From the NCBI GenBank assembly GCA_023262125.1, contig JALRDT010000132.1, positions 1-6,925 on the forward strand: a DNA stretch of 6,925 bases. Direction: 5' to 3'. Shown piece by piece: positions 1 through 6,925 of the stretch (position 1 is its first letter; the number at the start of each line of letters is the position of its first letter). Origin of the DNA: Candidatus Nanopelagicaceae bacterium. GTDB taxonomy: Bacteria; Actinomycetota; Actinomycetes; Nanopelagicales; Nanopelagicaceae. The notes below the pieces were generated by a model. That model searched no databases, was not told the DNA's origin, and saw only the letters and a list, made by a program, of their open reading frames with translations. The position numbers and the translations under genes were made by a program.

Positions 1-744
1 TAGGAATTCATCATTCATCATCCCTTGCATGAATTGGCCGTTATTGTTTTTATTGGCGCCACGTGAATCTGTTGGGACCTTCTTGCCTGGGAGATACTTT
101 CCAGTTAATACACCTTGCGCTAATGGCGAATAAACAATCTGACTAATGCCTTCACGTTGGCAGAGCGGAACAATCTTTGCTTCGATAACTCGGTAGAGAG
201 CTGAATAGGAAGGTTGATTCGAAACGATTCGGTTGTATCCGCGATCGTCCTGAATCTTAAGCGCGTCTTGGATCTCGGTATGTTTCCAATTTGAAACACC
301 GATGTAATGAACTTTGCCTTGACGGATCAAATCGTCAAAAGCGCTGAGGGTTTCTTCGAGTGGAGTTTCGTAATCAAATCTATGAGCTTGATAAAGATCA
401 ATATGATCTGTTTGCAAACGCTTTAGCGATGCATTGCAAGATTCGATGATGTGTTTGCGTGATAGTCCACGATCGTTCTTGCCGGTACCGGTTGGAAAAT
501 AAACTTTGGTAAATAGTTCATAAGATTCTCGACGTACGCCCTTTAAAGCTTTGCCGAGAACACTCTCAGCTTTAGTGGCTGCGTAAACATCGGCAGTATC
601 CAAGGTAGTAATTCCGCAATCCAGAGCTGTACGCACACATTTGATTGCAGCCTCTTGTTCGACTTGAGAACCGTGCGTGATCCAATTTCCAAAAGCGATT
701 TCAGATACATACATTCCCGAATTTCCGAGTTTGCGGTACTCCAT
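1..744 (-). CDS. Aldo/keto reductase, Kv-beta-like group (3' end outside the window)
   Basis: NAD(P)H-dependent cytosolic oxidoreductase of the aldo/keto reductase superfamily; the substrate cannot be told from sequence. The frame reads from ATG at 744 down to position 1, giving 248 codons with no stop, so the C-terminus lies beyond the left edge; related proteins are usually about 320-340 residues. The opening MEYRKLGNSGMYVSE is typical of the family. The catalytic tetrad is visible: Asp49 and Tyr54 (in LDTADVY), Lys80 (in FTKVYF) and His121 (in YQAHRFD). Later family landmarks are GKVHYIGVSNW and, near the cut end, YSPLAQGVLTGKY. The overall pattern resembles potassium-channel beta-subunit-like bacterial reductases. 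A purine-rich GGGGGAGAG run lies just upstream of the ATG with about 8 bases of spacing, which supports this start. It is transcribed divergently from the riboswitch-led transporter operon, and no functional link between them is evident. Confidence 0.93.
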   Translation of the reverse strand, partial: MEYRKLGNSGMYVSEIAFGNWITHGSQVEQEAAIKCVRTALDCGITTLDTADVYAATKAESVLGKALKGVRRESYELFTKVYFPTGTGKNDRGLSRKHIIESCNASLKRLQTDHIDLYQAHRFDYETPLEETLSAFDDLIRQGKVHYIGVSNWKHTEIQDALKIQDDRGYNRIVSNQPSYSALYRVIEAKIVPLCQREGISQIVYSPLAQGVLTGKYLPGKKVPTDSRGANKNNNGQFMQGMMNDEFL

Positions 745-796
745 ATGACACTCTCCCCCGTTAAACCTCTGAGATTCTTGCTACCTAGCCCTTTAT

Positions 797-932
797 GTGG
801 TTGTATCCAGCCTACAACTTAATATTTCAAAATACAGGGGAAGATTGGTGTGAATCCAACGCTGACCCGCAACCGTTAAAGCCGGATTACCTGATTTTGA
901 AAGAATCGACCACCCGCCGAGGATTGCGGGGC
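797..932 (+). promoter_or_regulatory. Cobalamin (B12) riboswitch
   Basis: An RNA leader element that binds a cobalamin, probably adenosylcobalamin, and controls the downstream transporter operon. The conserved core is read directly in order: GGGGAA at 837-842, TGGTGTGAATCCA at 846-858, GCTGACCCGCAACCGT at 861-876, and the B12-box-like AAGCCGGATTACC at 879-891. The P6 arm between the CCCGCAACCGT loop and the B12 box is very short. A 3' hairpin, CCCGC (913-917) with GCGGG (926-930), follows. The seven bases TTGCGGG at 924-930 also match CCCGCAA at 866-872 perfectly, the sort of contact expected for the L5-L13 kissing interaction that sets the switch. Both outer ends are approximate because P1 could not be drawn with confidence. 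No convincing promoter was found upstream. The switch sits 129 bases before the first gene of the operon, with a terminator between. Confidence 0.93.
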
Positions 933-957
933 TTTAGTCAAAAGACTTTGCAGATCT

Positions 958-1006
958 GTCGTTCACTGATTATTCAATTTTTGAATATTAAAGGAACGAC
1001 TTTTTT
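958..1006 (+). terminator. Intrinsic terminator in the riboswitch leader (expression platform)
   Basis: A two-part hairpin followed by a U-tract. The base stem is GTCGTTC (958-964) with GAACGAC (994-1000). The upper stem is TATTCAA (971-977) with TTGAATA (981-987), closing a TTT loop. A symmetric six-by-six internal loop separates them, and six T's follow at 1001-1006. It lies after the cobalamin aptamer and before the first gene's Shine-Dalgarno site (1047-1052), so it most likely acts as a ligand-dependent attenuator: cobalamin bound, transcription stops. A competing partner for the 5' arm exists at 903-910 (GAATCGAC, one bulged base), which would serve as the antiterminator. Many actinobacterial cobalamin switches are thought to act on translation, so a transcriptional platform here is notable but not proven. 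Confidence 0.8.
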
Positions 1007-1060
1007 ATTAGTTTCTTGGTAAGCCCAGTAAGTCTTCCTGAAATTTAAAGGAACTTAACT

Positions 1061-1594
1061 GTGAAGAAATTCTTCTCACTCATCTTTTCTGCTTTTCTAC
1101 TAACGCTATCAATAACTCCGGCTAGCGCTGCGCCTGAAAAAGGTTGGCGTTACTGGGGTTACTTCCAGGCATCCCCTGGTTCAAATACCTGGAACTATGC
1201 ACTTACTGGACCAGCAGGTTCGATTCCAAAAGATGGCGCAATCGAAGCTTGGAAATTTTCATTCTCTAGCGACACCGTTGATACTGGAAATCCAACACTT
1301 AAACCTAATTTCAAAGCAATTTGCGCCGGTGTAAAACCTGAAGCCGGAATGATCCGAGTAGGAGTAGTCGTCGAATTTGGTTTACGGGCAATCGCTCCTA
1401 AAGGAGAGAGTGTTCAGCAAACGATTAGGCAATGTGTAAGTGTGAAGGCCGGTACTAATGGCCTAGAAATTTTAAATAAGGCTGTGCCGGTCCGAACCTC
1501 TGCCGAAGGTTTTGTCTGTGGTCTAAATAATTACCCAGCTAAAGAATGCAGCTCAGAGATCCAAACTCCTAAATCATTAGCTAAGAAGAAGTAA
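1061..1594 (+). CDS. Secreted SCO2322-family protein, first gene of the B12-riboswitch operon
   Basis: A 177-residue exported protein of unknown biochemical function. It begins with GTG, with AAAGGA at 1047-1052 and 8 bases of spacing supporting that start. The N-terminus is a standard Sec signal peptide: a Lys-Lys pair, a hydrophobic stretch over residues 4-19, and likely cleavage after ASA at residues 21-23. No lipobox cysteine is present, so it should be soluble outside the membrane. The mature part carries motifs recalled from Streptomyces SCO2322 relatives: RYWGYF (30-35), WNYALTGP (44-51), a VGVVVEFG strand (100-107) and CGLNNYPAKEC (153-163). It has four cysteines (88, 125, 153, 163), enough for two disulfides, and a Lys-rich tail. 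Being first behind a cobalamin riboswitch and directly ahead of an ECF transporter suggests an accessory role in cobalamin capture or delivery. That role is inference from position only. Confidence 0.88.
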   Translation: MKKFFSLIFSAFLLTLSITPASAAPEKGWRYWGYFQASPGSNTWNYALTGPAGSIPKDGAIEAWKFSFSSDTVDTGNPTLKPNFKAICAGVKPEAGMIRVGVVVEFGLRAIAPKGESVQQTIRQCVSVKAGTNGLEILNKAVPVRTSAEGFVCGLNNYPAKECSSEIQTPKSLAKKK

Positions 1595-1605
1595 TAATTA
1601 AAAAT

Positions 1606-2340
1606 TTGCATCCGCTGACGTGGTGGTTATGGAGCGCACTCCTAGCCACCACTTTGGTCCGCCTACAAAATCCATGGGTAACTATCGGTGCAGTTTTAAC
1701 TACCTCTTTAATAGTTTATCTATTTAAGTCAGATGGACCATGGTCTGATAGCTTCAACTGGGCGCTGAAGTTGGCTCTACTTGTAATAATGTTTAGAGTT
1801 TTTATTGGCGTGGTAATAGGAGTTCCTGTTCCTGGCACAACAATCTTCACCATTCCTCAAATACCACTTCCTAGTTGGATGGCAGGAATTACTTTAGGTG
1901 GACCTGTAACTTGGGAACGAATCTCTTCTGCTGCAATTGAGAGTTTAACTATTGCAAGCATAATTATTTTGTTCGGAGCTGCAACCGCTCTAACTAATCC
2001 CCGTTCACTTTTAAGAGCGATGCCGTCAATGTTTTACGAAGTTGCAATGGTCTTGGTGATTGCTACTTCCTTAACTCCACAATTGGTTGCAAATCTGAAG
2101 CGAATTCGGATTGCTCAAAAGATGCGTGGAATCAACACTAAGAAATTCCTCTCATGGAGACAAATAGCAATGCCGTTACTTGAAGATTCACTAGCACGCG
2201 CATTGGATTTGGCTGCAGCTATGGATTCTCGCGGATATGGCGTATCCAGAAAACGAAGCAAATATCGGCCACAGAAATTTAATTTCCGCGACCTATTAAT
2301 GATCTCGACATCATTTCTTTTCTTGGCGGTCTCCTTATGA
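1606..2340 (+). CDS. ecfT: ECF transporter transmembrane component (EcfT, CbiQ family), CbrV-like
   Basis: The membrane coupling subunit of an energy-coupling factor importer; it transmits ATPase motion to the substrate-binding subunit. It has 244 residues. Hydrophobic segments lie near residues 6-20, 25-40, 52-76, 108-128, 141-160 and 229-244. The two Ala-Arg-Gly-type coupling motifs expected in this family are visible as AQKMRG (170-175) and AMDSRGYG (205-212), at the ends of the cytoplasmic coupling helices. The start is TTG at 1606, 11 bases after the previous stop. No good Shine-Dalgarno sits at normal distance (AAGAAG ends 14 bases upstream), but the resulting MHPLTWWLW matches the conserved HPLxWW opening of actinobacterial CbiQ proteins. 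The protein ends abruptly within or just after its last membrane helix, where its TGA overlaps the ATG of the ATPase gene (ATGA), implying translational coupling. Confidence 0.9.
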   Translation: MHPLTWWLWSALLATTLVRLQNPWVTIGAVLTTSLIVYLFKSDGPWSDSFNWALKLALLVIMFRVFIGVVIGVPVPGTTIFTIPQIPLPSWMAGITLGGPVTWERISSAAIESLTIASIIILFGAATALTNPRSLLRAMPSMFYEVAMVLVIATSLTPQLVANLKRIRIAQKMRGINTKKFLSWRQIAMPLLEDSLARALDLAAAMDSRGYGVSRKRSKYRPQKFNFRDLLMISTSFLFLAVSL

Positions 2341-3890
2341 TCAAATTTCAGAACGTATCCCTTATCTACCCAACAGCAGAGAGGACAATTCTTGATAAAT
2401 TGAACTTTGAAATCGGTGAAGGTGAATTTGTCTTACTAATTGGCGAAACCGGAATTGGTAAGAGTTCAGTACTTCGCCTTATTAATGGCTTAGTTCCCCA
2501 TCACACAGGCGGCATTTTGGCTGGCAATGTTGAAGTTGGTGGCATCTCCACTCGCACCGTTAGACCTGGGCAGTTAGCTGAGTTGATTGGGATTGTCGGT
2601 CAGAATCCAGTGAATGGTTTTGTAACGGATATTGTCGAAGATGAATTAGCCTTCTCTATGGAATCTCTAAATCTTCCAGAAGATGCGATGCGTAAGAGAA
2701 TTGAGGAAGTTCTAGATTTACTTAGCTTAAATCAAATTAGAAATCGAAAGATTGCGACGCTATCTGGTGGTGAACAGCAACGTGTAGCCATCGCAGCGGC
2801 AATGGTGCTTCATCCAAAGATTCTGGTATTGGATGAACCAACTAGCGCACTTGACCCAGTTGCCGCTGAAGAGGTTCTAGCTATTTTGCAACGGCTAGTT
2901 CATGATCTTGGTATCACAGTGATAATCGCCGAACATCGTTTAGAGCGAGTAATCGGTTATGTAGATTTAGTTATAGAGATCAGCGCTAATGGACAGACTC
3001 GAATTGGCAAACCAGAAGAGATTTTAAAAGACTCAAAAATCGCTCCGCCCATTGTGAAATTAGCCAGAGCTTTAAAACTTCCGCAGATCTCTCTATCTGT
3101 TCGCGATTTGAGAAAGAGCACCGAAGAGATTCGTAGCAAAGGAAAGGAGCTCCATTCAAGCGAGCACACCTTTGGATCAAATTTACTCGAAGCTGAAAAT
3201 CTCTCAGTCTCTTACGAAAATAAGGTCGCGCTCCAACCTTTAAATTTGAAAATTAGACGCGGTGAAATCGTGGCGCTCATGGGCAGAAATGGCGCGGGAA
3301 AGAGCTCATTAATAAAAGCCCTTTTAAATGTAATTTCATACAAGGGTCAAATCAAGAATATTGGCAAAAGAATTGGTTACATTCCCCAAGATGCTAATGA
3401 TCTGCTCTATCACCAGAGCGTGGCAGCTGAGTGCGACCAGACAGATCAGGATAATAAATTAGCTAAAGGTGCAACCGCTAAATTACTTAATGAATTAGCA
3501 CCTAGCGTTAAATTAGATTCACATCCAAGAGATCTCTCTGAAGGTCAACGATTAGCGCTCGTGCTGGCAATTGTGCTCTCTCCTCAACCTGAGCTATTGA
3601 TTTTGGATGAACCCACTCGTGGCCTTGATTATGAAAGTAAATCGCTCTTAATTAAATTGCTTACTCAAAGTGCAGCCAATGGTTCCGCAGTTTTAATTGC
3701 AACTCATGACGTCGAGTTGGTTGCAGAACTTGCCACGCGTATCATCATTCTTGCCGAAGGCGAGTTAGTCGCAGATGGCAGCGCACTGGAAGTTTTGCTT
3801 GCCTCTCCATCATTTGCACCACAAGTTACCAAGGTGATGTCACCGCGTAAATGGTTAACCATTTCAGATGTATTGAAGGCAGTTGAATGA
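2337..3890 (+). CDS. ecfA: ECF transporter fused double ATPase (EcfA1-EcfA2), CbrU-like
   Basis: The energising subunit of the ECF importer, with two ABC ATPase domains in one 517-residue chain instead of two separate proteins. Domain 1 (about 1-240): Walker A GETGIGKS (36-43), Q-loop Gln89, signature LSGGEQQR (142-149), Walker B ILVLDEP with catalytic Glu167, and H-loop His200. Domain 2 (about 283-500): Walker A GRNGAGKS (316-323), Q-loop Gln351, signature LSEGQR (400-405), Walker B LLILDEP with Glu425, and H-loop His457. Both sites therefore look catalytically complete, although the second signature has Glu in place of the first Gly. A charged linker (about 243-282) joins them. ATGA overlaps at both ends tie it to the T gene before and the S gene after. 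Generic ECF ATPases serve several S proteins, but this one is likely dedicated because all subunits share one operon. Confidence 0.94.
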   Translation: MIKFQNVSLIYPTAERTILDKLNFEIGEGEFVLLIGETGIGKSSVLRLINGLVPHHTGGILAGNVEVGGISTRTVRPGQLAELIGIVGQNPVNGFVTDIVEDELAFSMESLNLPEDAMRKRIEEVLDLLSLNQIRNRKIATLSGGEQQRVAIAAAMVLHPKILVLDEPTSALDPVAAEEVLAILQRLVHDLGITVIIAEHRLERVIGYVDLVIEISANGQTRIGKPEEILKDSKIAPPIVKLARALKLPQISLSVRDLRKSTEEIRSKGKELHSSEHTFGSNLLEAENLSVSYENKVALQPLNLKIRRGEIVALMGRNGAGKSSLIKALLNVISYKGQIKNIGKRIGYIPQDANDLLYHQSVAAECDQTDQDNKLAKGATAKLLNELAPSVKLDSHPRDLSEGQRLALVLAIVLSPQPELLILDEPTRGLDYESKSLLIKLLTQSAANGSAVLIATHDVELVAELATRIIILAEGELVADGSALEVLLASPSFAPQVTKVMSPRKWLTISDVLKAVE

Positions 3891-4654
3891 AGACCGCTGA
3901 AATTTTCCGTTTTCAAGGTTTTAAATCGCTTGCGTTAATTGCCACCTCAGTTATTAGCGCCATGGGATTTCTCTGGCCATTCTTTGGCAGCGATAATAGA
4001 AGTGGATTTTTCTTCTGGCTAGCAACCCCATTGGCGCTCTTGCTCTTACTTTCCTTAATAGGCCAGGCAAATCTTGATGCCAAATCATTAGCTTTACTTG
4101 CAGTATTAAGTGCAATTATCGCTGCGCTTCGTCCACTTGGAGCAGGTGCTGCCGGAATTGAACCGATGTGGTTTCTCTTGATATTAGCTAGCTACGTCTT
4201 TGGCGCAAGTTTTGGATTTTTACTTGGCGTGCAATCAATGCTTCTGTCTGCATTTTTAACTGGAGGTTTTGGTCCATGGTTGCCCTATCAAATTTTTGCA
4301 GCTGGTTGGATCGGATTGATTGCAGGTTCATTGCCTAAATTAAAGAAATTTGAAATTCAACTTATAGCTTTCTCATCTCTACTTCTTGCTGAAATTTTTG
4401 GATTATTAATGGATCTGCAATTTTGGCCATGGGCCTTTGGACCAAAAACTCAACTCTCCTATATTCCAGGGGCTGCTATTGCAGATAACTTGGAGCGATT
4501 TATTGCTTATCACTTTGCATCATCAATGGCATGGAATGTTCCACGCGCAATTTTTACGGCAATGCTGGTTTTGGCAGTTGGTCCTGGCGTCCTAAAAGCT
4601 TTACAGCGCGCAGCGCGCAAAGCCTCTTTCGCAAGTGAAATTAAATTTACTTGA
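3887..4654 (+). CDS. ECF transporter substrate-binding membrane component (EcfS), probable cobalamin-specific CbrT-like
   Basis: The substrate-capture subunit of the ECF importer, an integral membrane protein of 255 residues with about six or seven hydrophobic segments (near 14-32, 41-59, 66-82, 93-118, 126-148, 158-177 and 218-238). Family-like motifs are RPLGAGAAGIEPMWF (82-96), followed by FGASFGFLLG (105-114) and GGFGPWLPYQ (126-135), which I associate with actinobacterial ECF S components beside SCO2322-type genes. It begins with an ATG overlapping the ATPase stop (ATGA) and is the last gene of the operon. The upstream cobalamin riboswitch makes cobalamin or a corrinoid precursor the best substrate guess; the sequence alone does not show ligand residues. 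Its 3' end overlaps the convergent gcvT gene by 8 bp, and no terminator hairpin is visible between the two. Confidence 0.85.
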   Translation: MKTAEIFRFQGFKSLALIATSVISAMGFLWPFFGSDNRSGFFFWLATPLALLLLLSLIGQANLDAKSLALLAVLSAIIAALRPLGAGAAGIEPMWFLLILASYVFGASFGFLLGVQSMLLSAFLTGGFGPWLPYQIFAAGWIGLIAGSLPKLKKFEIQLIAFSSLLLAEIFGLLMDLQFWPWAFGPKTQLSYIPGAAIADNLERFIAYHFASSMAWNVPRAIFTAMLVLAVGPGVLKALQRAARKASFASEIKFT

Positions 4655-5726
4655 CGTGTGGTTCAACCATCGGCAGCTTAACTATCTCAGCCGCTAATTC
4701 GCGACCTCGAACATCAATAGTTACTTGATCGCCAATTTTGAATGCAGTATCTACCAAGCCAAGGGCGATTCCGACCTTTAAAGTTGGTGAAAAAGTACCA
4801 GAGGTGGTTTCTCCAATAACCTTACCGTCGACTTTAATCGACATATGACCGCGCGGAATACCGCGATCTTTTAACTTTAAACCGCGAAGACGTCGTGAAA
4901 TACCGGCATCTTTCTCTGCTCTTAGTGCAGTATCGCCATTGAACTTCGATTTTTCATAAGCGATCGCCCATGCAGCGCCACCAACATTTGCTGAGATCGC
5001 TTCTGATAATTCATTTCCATGTAATGGATAACCCATTTCAGTTCGTAAGGTGTCACGTGCACCAAGTCCGCATACCAATCCATCACCTAGATTTGCTGCG
5101 ATTGCATCCCAGACTTTTCCAGCTTCACTCCACTTAGGTAGGACTTCATAGCCATGTTCACCTGAGTATCCGGTACGACAGACAATAACTTTATGGCCGT
5201 TGATTTCACCATGGCTAAAGGACATGTACTCCATACCTAGATTTAAACCAACGCTTTCAAGGAGCGCTTTTGATTTTGGTCCCTGCACCGCAATTACTGC
5301 ATACTCTTCATGGAGATTAACGATTTCAAGGCCAGCTGGCGCCTGAGATTTTAAAACTTCAAAAACTTTCGCACAGTTGGCGGCATTTGGCACCAAGAAA
5401 ATATCATCGTCGCTATTTCGATAAGCGATGATGTCATCAATTACGCCACCATTATCATTGCAAAGTAAGTTGTACTGCGCTTCGCCGTTTGTGATTTTAT
5501 TTAGATCGTTGGTCAAAATACTATTTATGAAATCTTTGGCCCCAGCACCTTTGATTGAAATTTTGCCTAGGTGTGAAACATCAAATATTCCGACTCGATT
5601 TCGAACCGCATCATGTTCGGCAAGGACCCCACCGCCTGGGTATTCGATTGGCATCTCCCAGCCACCGAAATCTGCCATCTTTGCTCCGAGGGACTTATGC
5701 TTTTCATCTAGCGGTGAATGTTTCAT
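4647..5726 (-). CDS. gcvT: Glycine cleavage system aminomethyltransferase (T protein)
   Basis: A cytosolic enzyme that takes the aminomethyl group from the lipoylated H protein, releases ammonia and forms 5,10-methylene-tetrahydrofolate. At 359 residues it is full length for the family. Visible landmarks are the N-terminal HKSLGAKMADFGGWEMP (10-26), GIFDVSHLGK (46-55), the GGVIDDIIAYR segment (93-103) carrying the invariant aspartate (Asp97 or Asp98), RTGYSGEHGYEV (184-195), GLGARDTLRTEMGYPLHGNEL (220-240, binding-face region) and ETTSGTFSPTL (306-316) in the C-terminal barrel. The start is ATG at 5726. There is no Shine-Dalgarno upstream, but a TAACCT hexamer ends six bases before the ATG, suggesting a leaderless mRNA. 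It diverges from the pepA-like frame and converges with the ECF operon. No other gcv gene is in the window. Confidence 0.96.
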   Translation of the reverse strand: MKHSPLDEKHKSLGAKMADFGGWEMPIEYPGGGVLAEHDAVRNRVGIFDVSHLGKISIKGAGAKDFINSILTNDLNKITNGEAQYNLLCNDNGGVIDDIIAYRNSDDDIFLVPNAANCAKVFEVLKSQAPAGLEIVNLHEEYAVIAVQGPKSKALLESVGLNLGMEYMSFSHGEINGHKVIVCRTGYSGEHGYEVLPKWSEAGKVWDAIAANLGDGLVCGLGARDTLRTEMGYPLHGNELSEAISANVGGAAWAIAYEKSKFNGDTALRAEKDAGISRRLRGLKLKDRGIPRGHMSIKVDGKVIGETTSGTFSPTLKVGIALGLVDTAFKIGDQVTIDVRGRELAAEIVKLPMVEPHVK

Positions 5727-5732
5727 AGGAGC

Positions 5733-5738
5733 AGGTTA
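5733..5738 (-). promoter_or_regulatory. Putative -10 element for leaderless gcvT
   Basis: On the minus strand the hexamer TAACCT fits the actinobacterial TAnnnT -10 pattern. Only six bases (5732-5727) separate it from the gcvT ATG, so transcription would begin at or next to the start codon. There is no Shine-Dalgarno, which is consistent. A -35 match is weak: TTGAGC at 5763-5758 with 19 bases of spacing. Confidence 0.5.
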
Positions 5739-5743
5739 TCTAA

Positions 5744-5749
5744 TACCCT
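5744..5749 (+). promoter_or_regulatory. Putative -10 element for the leaderless pepA-like gene
   Basis: TACCCT fits TAnnnT and is followed by six bases (5750-5755) and then the ATG at 5756, mirroring the arrangement for gcvT on the other strand. No Shine-Dalgarno is present. No recognisable -35 is seen; that position would fall on the gcvT start codon. Confidence 0.5.
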
Positions 5750-5755
5750 TGCCAA

Positions 5756-6925
5756 ATGCTCAAACTTAAATACCTCGAAAAATCAGTTAATTGCGACGCT
5801 CTAGTAGTTGGTCTGGCTAAAGGCGCCAAAGGTTTAGAGATTATCTCTACCCTTAAATTAGATGAACGCGAAATTCTGCAATCGCTTGCCGACATTGGAG
5901 CAACTGGCAGAGCTGATGAGGTCATCAAGTTACCTGGTACCTCAACCAAGTTGATTGTATTTACTGGTTTAGGGAAAGCATCCAAGGAATATTCATCCGA
6001 AACAATTCGACGTGCAGCTGGCATTGCGGCGCAGAGTTTGCATGGGCATAAGAGCGCTATTTTTGCGATTGATAACGATGCTAGAGCCATGGCAGAAGGC
6101 GCCGCGTTAGGTTCATATTCTTTTGTTGATTTTCGCGGTCATACCAAGAAAGATCAGAAGGCGCCGCTTTCAGAGATTTACATTGACGCTGATGGAGATA
6201 GCAAATTACTTAAGGAAGTTGAAATTGTTACTAGATGGACTTTCTTTGCACGTGATTTGGTCAATATGCCACCTAGTTATTTAAATCCAAAGAAATTTGC
6301 AGAGTTAATCAATGAAAAGGCAAAGAAGATTTCTGGAGTAAAGATAAAGGTTTGGGATGAGAAGCAATTAAAGTCTCAAGGCTTTGGCGGATTAATAGGA
6401 GTAGGACAAGGATCAGCCAATCCTCCACGTTTAGTTCATCTTTCATACAAACCGGCTAAAGCAAAACGAACCTACGCATATGTAGGTAAGGGAATTACCT
6501 TTGATTCCGGAACATCTCACCGAAGTGGTGCGAAGTTTGGTCCACAAGCCATTCGCATGGGGGATTACTTACCTCATGATGGAGAACGTCCACATTTAGC
6601 TTTACGTACAGATGGTCTTAAAGATATGAAAGTTGTCGATGCTGGCGACTTGATTATGAATGGTGGAGATTTAGAAGGTTCATTAGCGTTATTAGCAGAA
6701 GCTACTGAAAAGATTTCTCGCGCTGGCGCAATTGCAGTAATTCTTGGTGGCGATCATTCGATTGCTTCTGCTGATGTTGCAGGCATTGCTAATCACCGCG
6801 GCAAAGGCAAAATTTCAATGGTGCACTTTGATGCACATGCAGATACCGGAACAGATCAATGGGGCGCACTTGTAGGTCACGGAACCCCAATGCGTCGTTT
6901 GATTGAAAACGGTCATGTACGCGGA
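5756..6925 (+). CDS. Chimeric frame: leucyl aminopeptidase N-terminal part joined to an agmatinase/arginase-family part (3' end outside the window)
   Basis: One open frame of 390 codons, unbroken to the right edge. Residues 1 to about 248 are PepA (M17): an N-terminal domain, FFARDLVNMPP (163-173), GFGGLIGVGQGS (209-220), PPRLVHLSY, then GKGITFDSG (244-252), which supplies the metal-site Lys245 and Asp250. True PepA would continue with Gly and the SLKP lysine, then the NTDAEGR catalytic segment; none of this is here. Instead, from FDSG (249-252) it reads TSHRSGAKFGPQAIR, then VVDAGD, GGDHS (331-335), HFDAHADT (357-364) and HGTP (375-378). These are ureohydrolase motifs with manganese ligands His334, Asp359, His361 and Asp363, and a likely catalytic His375. 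The last Asp-x-Asp ligands would fall past the edge. The ureohydrolase part lacks its own N-terminus. The peptidase half cannot be active as it stands; the second half might be. The pepA half appears native to this site, being placed beside gcvT with its own start. Misassembly, recombination or true fusion cannot be separated from this sequence. Confidence 0.88.
   Translation, partial: MLKLKYLEKSVNCDALVVGLAKGAKGLEIISTLKLDEREILQSLADIGATGRADEVIKLPGTSTKLIVFTGLGKASKEYSSETIRRAAGIAAQSLHGHKSAIFAIDNDARAMAEGAALGSYSFVDFRGHTKKDQKAPLSEIYIDADGDSKLLKEVEIVTRWTFFARDLVNMPPSYLNPKKFAELINEKAKKISGVKIKVWDEKQLKSQGFGGLIGVGQGSANPPRLVHLSYKPAKAKRTYAYVGKGITFDSGTSHRSGAKFGPQAIRMGDYLPHDGERPHLALRTDGLKDMKVVDAGDLIMNGGDLEGSLALLAEATEKISRAGAIAVILGGDHSIASADVAGIANHRGKGKISMVHFDAHADTGTDQWGALVGHGTPMRRLIENGHVRG
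6500..6511 (+). other. PepA/agmatinase switch point (shared FDSG codons)
   Basis: The twelve bases encoding Phe-Asp-Ser-Gly (residues 249-252) belong equally well to the PepA motif GITFDSGG and the agmatinase motif VPFDSGTS. The residue before is Thr (PepA-like; agmatinase would have Pro) and the residue after is Thr (agmatinase-like; PepA would have Gly). The joint is therefore confined to this stretch. Reading frame is kept across it, and base composition looks similar on both sides by eye. Confidence 0.82.

Follow-up and report, generated by a model that had tools for sequence, protein, structure and literature searches.

The right edge of the 6,925-nucleotide stretch analysed here (the window) carries an open frame which begins as one enzyme and continues as another, and thus raises the question of whether it codes for a genuine two-domain protein or results from the joining of two unrelated genes. 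The frame opens with an ATG at position 5756 on the forward strand and reaches the window edge (6925) after 390 codons without a stop. Its first ~250 residues represent an M17 leucyl aminopeptidase (PepA), and from the FDSG motif (6501-6511) it proceeds in frame as an agmatinase, which is still open at the window edge.

A Pfam-A search of the full frame returned three domains: the N-terminal domain of Peptidase M17 (Peptidase_M17_N, PF02789; residues 40-127, E 3.7e-13, 50.0 bits against a cut-off of 23.4), a partial M17 catalytic domain (Peptidase_M17, PF00883; residues 164-252, E 3.8e-28), which covers only positions 2-91 of a 310-position profile and is thus incomplete, and a partial Arginase domain (PF00491; residues 246-388, profile 7-148 of 280, E 1e-32). 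In a search of PDB sequences (60 of 88 sequences listed), cytosol aminopeptidases align up to residues ~253-259 of the frame, while the right part is matched by agmatinases, a guanidinobutyrase and a proclavaminate amidinohydrolase, from residue 219 at the earliest to residue 389. Judged by these alignments, the matches of both halves to their families are far beyond chance. The translation and the Pfam assignments agree with the initial description of the frame as PepA up to GKGITFDSG, followed in frame by a ureohydrolase bearing the motifs GGDHS, DAHAD (which reads FDAHADTG) and HGTP. GGDHS and DAHAD are metal-binding motifs of agmatinases and other ureohydrolases.

Table. Features of the window and positions of pepA and speB in the genomes that carry both genes on one contig.
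Sequence	Feature	Position	Strand	Basis or remark
Window	Stretch collinear with one Nanopelagicaceae contig (L001): aldo/keto reductase, unknown 177-aa frame, CbiQ-like, double ABC ATPase, ECF S component, gcvT, pepA 5' part	80..6505		BLASTN, Pfam domains
Window	pepA 5' part, M17 leucyl aminopeptidase, residues 1-250 to GKGITFD	5756..6505	+	Pfam, L001 PepA
Window	Join region, motif FD(S/T)G of PepA / (I)DSG of agmatinase	6501..6511		BLASTN limits, protein motifs
Window	Internal agmatinase (ureohydrolase) piece, 5' ~40 codons missing, open at the window edge	6506..6925	+	Pfam Arginase, P0001
G003 (IMCC25003, complete)	pepA	772,869-773,684	minus	~367 kb from speB
G003 (IMCC25003, complete)	speB	1,140,888	plus	
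G239	pepA	620,721	minus	~111 kb from speB
G239	speB	509,086	plus	
G197	pepA	135,634	minus	~105 kb from speB
G197	speB	30,407	plus	

Up to the join, the window has a close counterpart in contig L001 (VEQG01000002.1), which belongs to the MAG Candidatus Nanopelagicaceae bacterium ZLKRG08 (genome G001). Window positions 80-6505 align with it in a single BLASTN piece of 6444 alignment columns at 79.97% identity, and the alignment stops at 6505. The pepA gene of L001 is intact (8001-9431, 476 aa), its product containing both GKGITFD and NPDAEGR, and 237 of the 250 residues in the PepA part of the window are identical to it. As in the window, gcvT is located upstream of pepA on the opposite strand, such that the intact pepA near gcvT, which had been proposed as a point to look for among relatives, is present in the nearest relative of the left part. 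Downstream of the L001 pepA lie a 454-aa dihydrolipoamide dehydrogenase-like frame and then a 568-aa dihydrolipoamide acyltransferase-like frame, both named from their translations only. The motif N(T/P)DAEGR, which follows GKGxTFD, is a catalytic motif of Peptidase M17; it is absent from the 390-residue frame. Elsewhere in the window (1606-4654), the CbiQ-like transmembrane protein, the double ABC ATPase and the ECF-type S component resemble an ordinary ECF-type transporter operon.

The right piece (~420 bases) has its closest protein, among the matches listed, in P0001, an intact 332-aa agmatinase (PF00491), with which it shares 138 of 141 residues, starting from P0001 residue 41. A separate and intact agmatinase, likewise suggested as a point to look for, is therefore found in relatives. 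The N-terminus of P0001 itself ends in ADVVIVGAPIDSG, and the window has PepA at the corresponding place; hence the agmatinase's own N-terminus, with its strand before (I)DSG, is missing, and PepA residues occur in its stead. At the nucleotide level, the right part exhibits ~69-80% identity (BLASTN) to the agmatinase genes of many Nanopelagicales. P0001 also contains SVDIDVVDP, with the DxD motif of the agmatinase C-terminal half, for which the corresponding region of the window would fall past the edge at 6925. Since each of the two genes is intact and separate in relatives, the initial inference of a chimera between two otherwise ordinary genes is supported.

The transition between the two genes is abrupt. 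The change of identity falls at GKGITF-DSG-TSHRSG: the pepA homology with L001 ends at 6505, and the agmatinase homology begins at 6501-6509 in most of the loci matched by BLASTN and at 6497-6498 in five of them (L007, L011, L012, L018 and L024), in keeping with the interval of 6500-6511 in which the join had originally been placed. PepA relatives read GITFD(T/S)GG at this point, agmatinases of the Nanopelagicales group read GAPIDSGT (IDSGT in P0001), and the window reads GITFDSGT. A short microhomology at the join is thus probable from these sequences, its extent of ~5-11 bases within 6500-6511 being an estimate from relatives and not from the exact parent sequences. Both genes read the common motif in one and the same phase, which would keep the frame open even if a fused protein were never selected for. 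The join sits ~420 bases from the window edge, and the odd length of 6925 hints that the contig may end there.

A natural fusion would be expected to recur in at least one independent sequence, and the search for the same two-domain join, proposed together with the sequence-only reading, covered several collections. Among ~5.8 billion proteins, no two-domain protein appeared in the best 120 of 3623 matches obtained with words from residues 200-330, in the best 120 of 7079 with words from residues 1-260, or in the best 120 of 7864 with words from residues 1-390; any protein with the same join ought to outscore all of the matches listed. The window's own fused protein was also absent from the protein matches listed, and the protein database may therefore not include the window contig, and gives no measure of how often the join has been assembled. 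The join was not seen in genome contigs (80 of 158 relatives kept), and viral contigs yielded no relative of the frame. Each of the 296 genomes in the G001 family gave a match, and among the match rows listed none spans the join, every row being confined to one of the two parts, PepA or agmatinase. A tblastn search produced 118 pieces in 118 loci, 13 of which (12 distinct frames, as two pieces belong to one frame) cross residues 235-270; the corresponding loci include L036, L037, L043, L056, L067 and L069. In 12 of these 13 pieces the agmatinase's own N-terminus precedes the motif; for L067 and L069 this was judged by reading, the stretch closing with VAIVGAPF or VAIMGAPF. The remaining piece, L043, belongs to an agmatinase of its own, with stop codons in front of it. 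The same join was found neither among the matches listed nor in the 13 join-crossing pieces. The literature searched contained nothing on an agmatinase-leucyl aminopeptidase gene fusion, on agmatinase in Nanopelagicales or on chimeric contigs with microhomology.

Two of the protein matches have odd ends comparable to that of the window. P0145 (436 aa, from a 1617-base contig) is a PepA of the same clade in which DVATLTGAN is followed by pentapeptide repeats (PF00805); this entry, too, is probably chimeric or misassembled. In P0002, an agmatinase, the tail looks unrelated, by reading only.

The positions and occurrence of the two genes in related genomes bear on how they could have been joined and on whether a single organism could have supplied both halves. 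Among the rows listed, three genomes carry both genes on one contig, where they are at least ~105 kb apart and on opposite strands in all three cases (see table). A simple deletion would therefore not join them; this would take an inversion or an insertion, although gene order in the lineage of the window may differ, because the PepAs of these three genomes are only 54-55% identical to that of the window. G003 additionally codes for a second, more distant M17 gene (540,491, plus strand, 30% identity). G001 is the only family genome, among the rows listed, with a PepA more than 60% identical to the window's, and its single Arginase-family gene codes for a paralogue of 294 aa. Its contig C12 contains the gene which precedes speB in IMCC25003, followed by a different, unrelated frame. 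At this agmatinase position (L127, 2321-4230), the frame is possibly an L,D-transpeptidase, by reading only. The locus suggests that the presence of agmatinase is patchy in the family, and also that an agmatinase of the window type is missing from the lineage behind the left part, which is supporting rather than decisive, resting on one possibly incomplete draft genome that is only ~80% identical to the window. Among the loci, the agmatinase part is most similar to G002 (92% identity across 74 residues, where a contig starts), a weak comparison given how strongly the family conserves this agmatinase; the PepA of G002 is only 51% identical to that of the window. Together, G001 and G002 suggest that the two halves may derive from different lineages.

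Base composition was considered as a test for two sources and proved uninformative. The GC content of the right piece is 46.4%, compared to 43.0% in the left, a rise of 3.4 points which falls inside the range of the same-gene rise in 33 relatives (+0.8 to +6.9 points; taken from 35 loci, with matches shorter than 135 residues dropped, two Geodermatophilus and one Pseudonocardiales being outside the family). Third-position GC runs in the opposite direction, at 27.1% in the right piece and 33.5% in the PepA part, the former calculated from only ~140 codons.

The PepA-agmatinase join is thus very probably not a real gene, and the frame is best explained, with a probability of roughly 0.88, as an artificial chimera in which library preparation or assembly brought two Nanopelagicales sequences together. 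It was observed directly that both parent families are ordinary, that homology breaks off abruptly and that no second example occurs in what was searched; the join would have arisen in sequencing or assembly rather than in the cell, with two organisms as the likely parents. A stretch of DNA that ends within pepA and a separate one that begins within an agmatinase gene, both from freshwater Nanopelagicales (acI-type actinobacteria), would have become joined at a short common stretch within TTTGATTCCGGA. The joining agent could have been a chimeric library or amplification molecule, or an assembler walking off a contig end, and the frame would survive the event since the common letters are read in one phase for the similar motifs FD(S/T)G and IDSG. 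In spite of this, the join is in frame and on an analogous motif, and composition fails to separate the halves, both of which count against an artefact. In addition, ~5-11 common bases are too short for an ordinary k-mer collision; the chimera may have formed as a library chimera or through a contig-end error.

The same short common stretch could also have served a genuine rearrangement, non-functional and confined to a single cell or strain, in which pepA and a far-off agmatinase gene were both broken and linked through illegitimate recombination at short homology. Precedent for such events is found in a study on Salmonella (PMC3411829), which describes spontaneous rearrangements, the confirmed ones having short repeats at their endpoints, and among them 22 with endpoint repeats of more than 10 bp. 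In the same study, the junctions with microhomology longer than expected were those that were confirmed, and microhomology exceeding chance expectation was taken as a sign of a real rearrangement. Such an origin is nevertheless unlikely for the window, since the genes are distant and on opposite strands in the three genomes seen to carry both on one contig, such that an inversion or insertion is required, no second example exists among the matches listed, and this agmatinase is missing from G001, to which the left part is most closely related. A real fused enzyme, expressed in a single lineage, in which the N-terminal region and first catalytic strand of PepA cap a ureohydrolase domain and replace the agmatinase N-terminal strand, would constitute a new two-enzyme architecture, yet this alternative of the sequence-only reading is highly improbable: beyond a frame open through the join and the retained GGDHS, DAHAD and HGTP nothing was found in its favour, no relative seen has the join (either among the matches listed or in the loci examined), the M17 catalytic domain ends at profile position 91 of 310, the agmatinase N-terminus is missing, and the nearest relative has an intact PepA at the same locus.

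As a probable chimera, the frame shares with each of its parent families only a part. With PepA and Peptidase M17 it has in common the N-terminal domain and the start of the catalytic domain up to GKGITFD, but it lacks the remaining ~226 residues, NPDAEGR included. Compared to the agmatinases of Nanopelagicales (SpeB-like, PF00491), the right piece keeps GGDHS and FDAHADTG, yet the first ~40 residues are replaced by PepA, the remainder lying beyond the window. A join at a common motif can leave the reading frame intact and so be mistaken for a novel domain architecture, and the probable artefact serves mainly as a warning in this respect. Like chimeric contigs and chimeric reads, the frame switches abruptly between two ordinary genes, at a short common stretch near a sequence edge and with no second example among the sequences searched; here the probable chimera is judged from sequence comparison.
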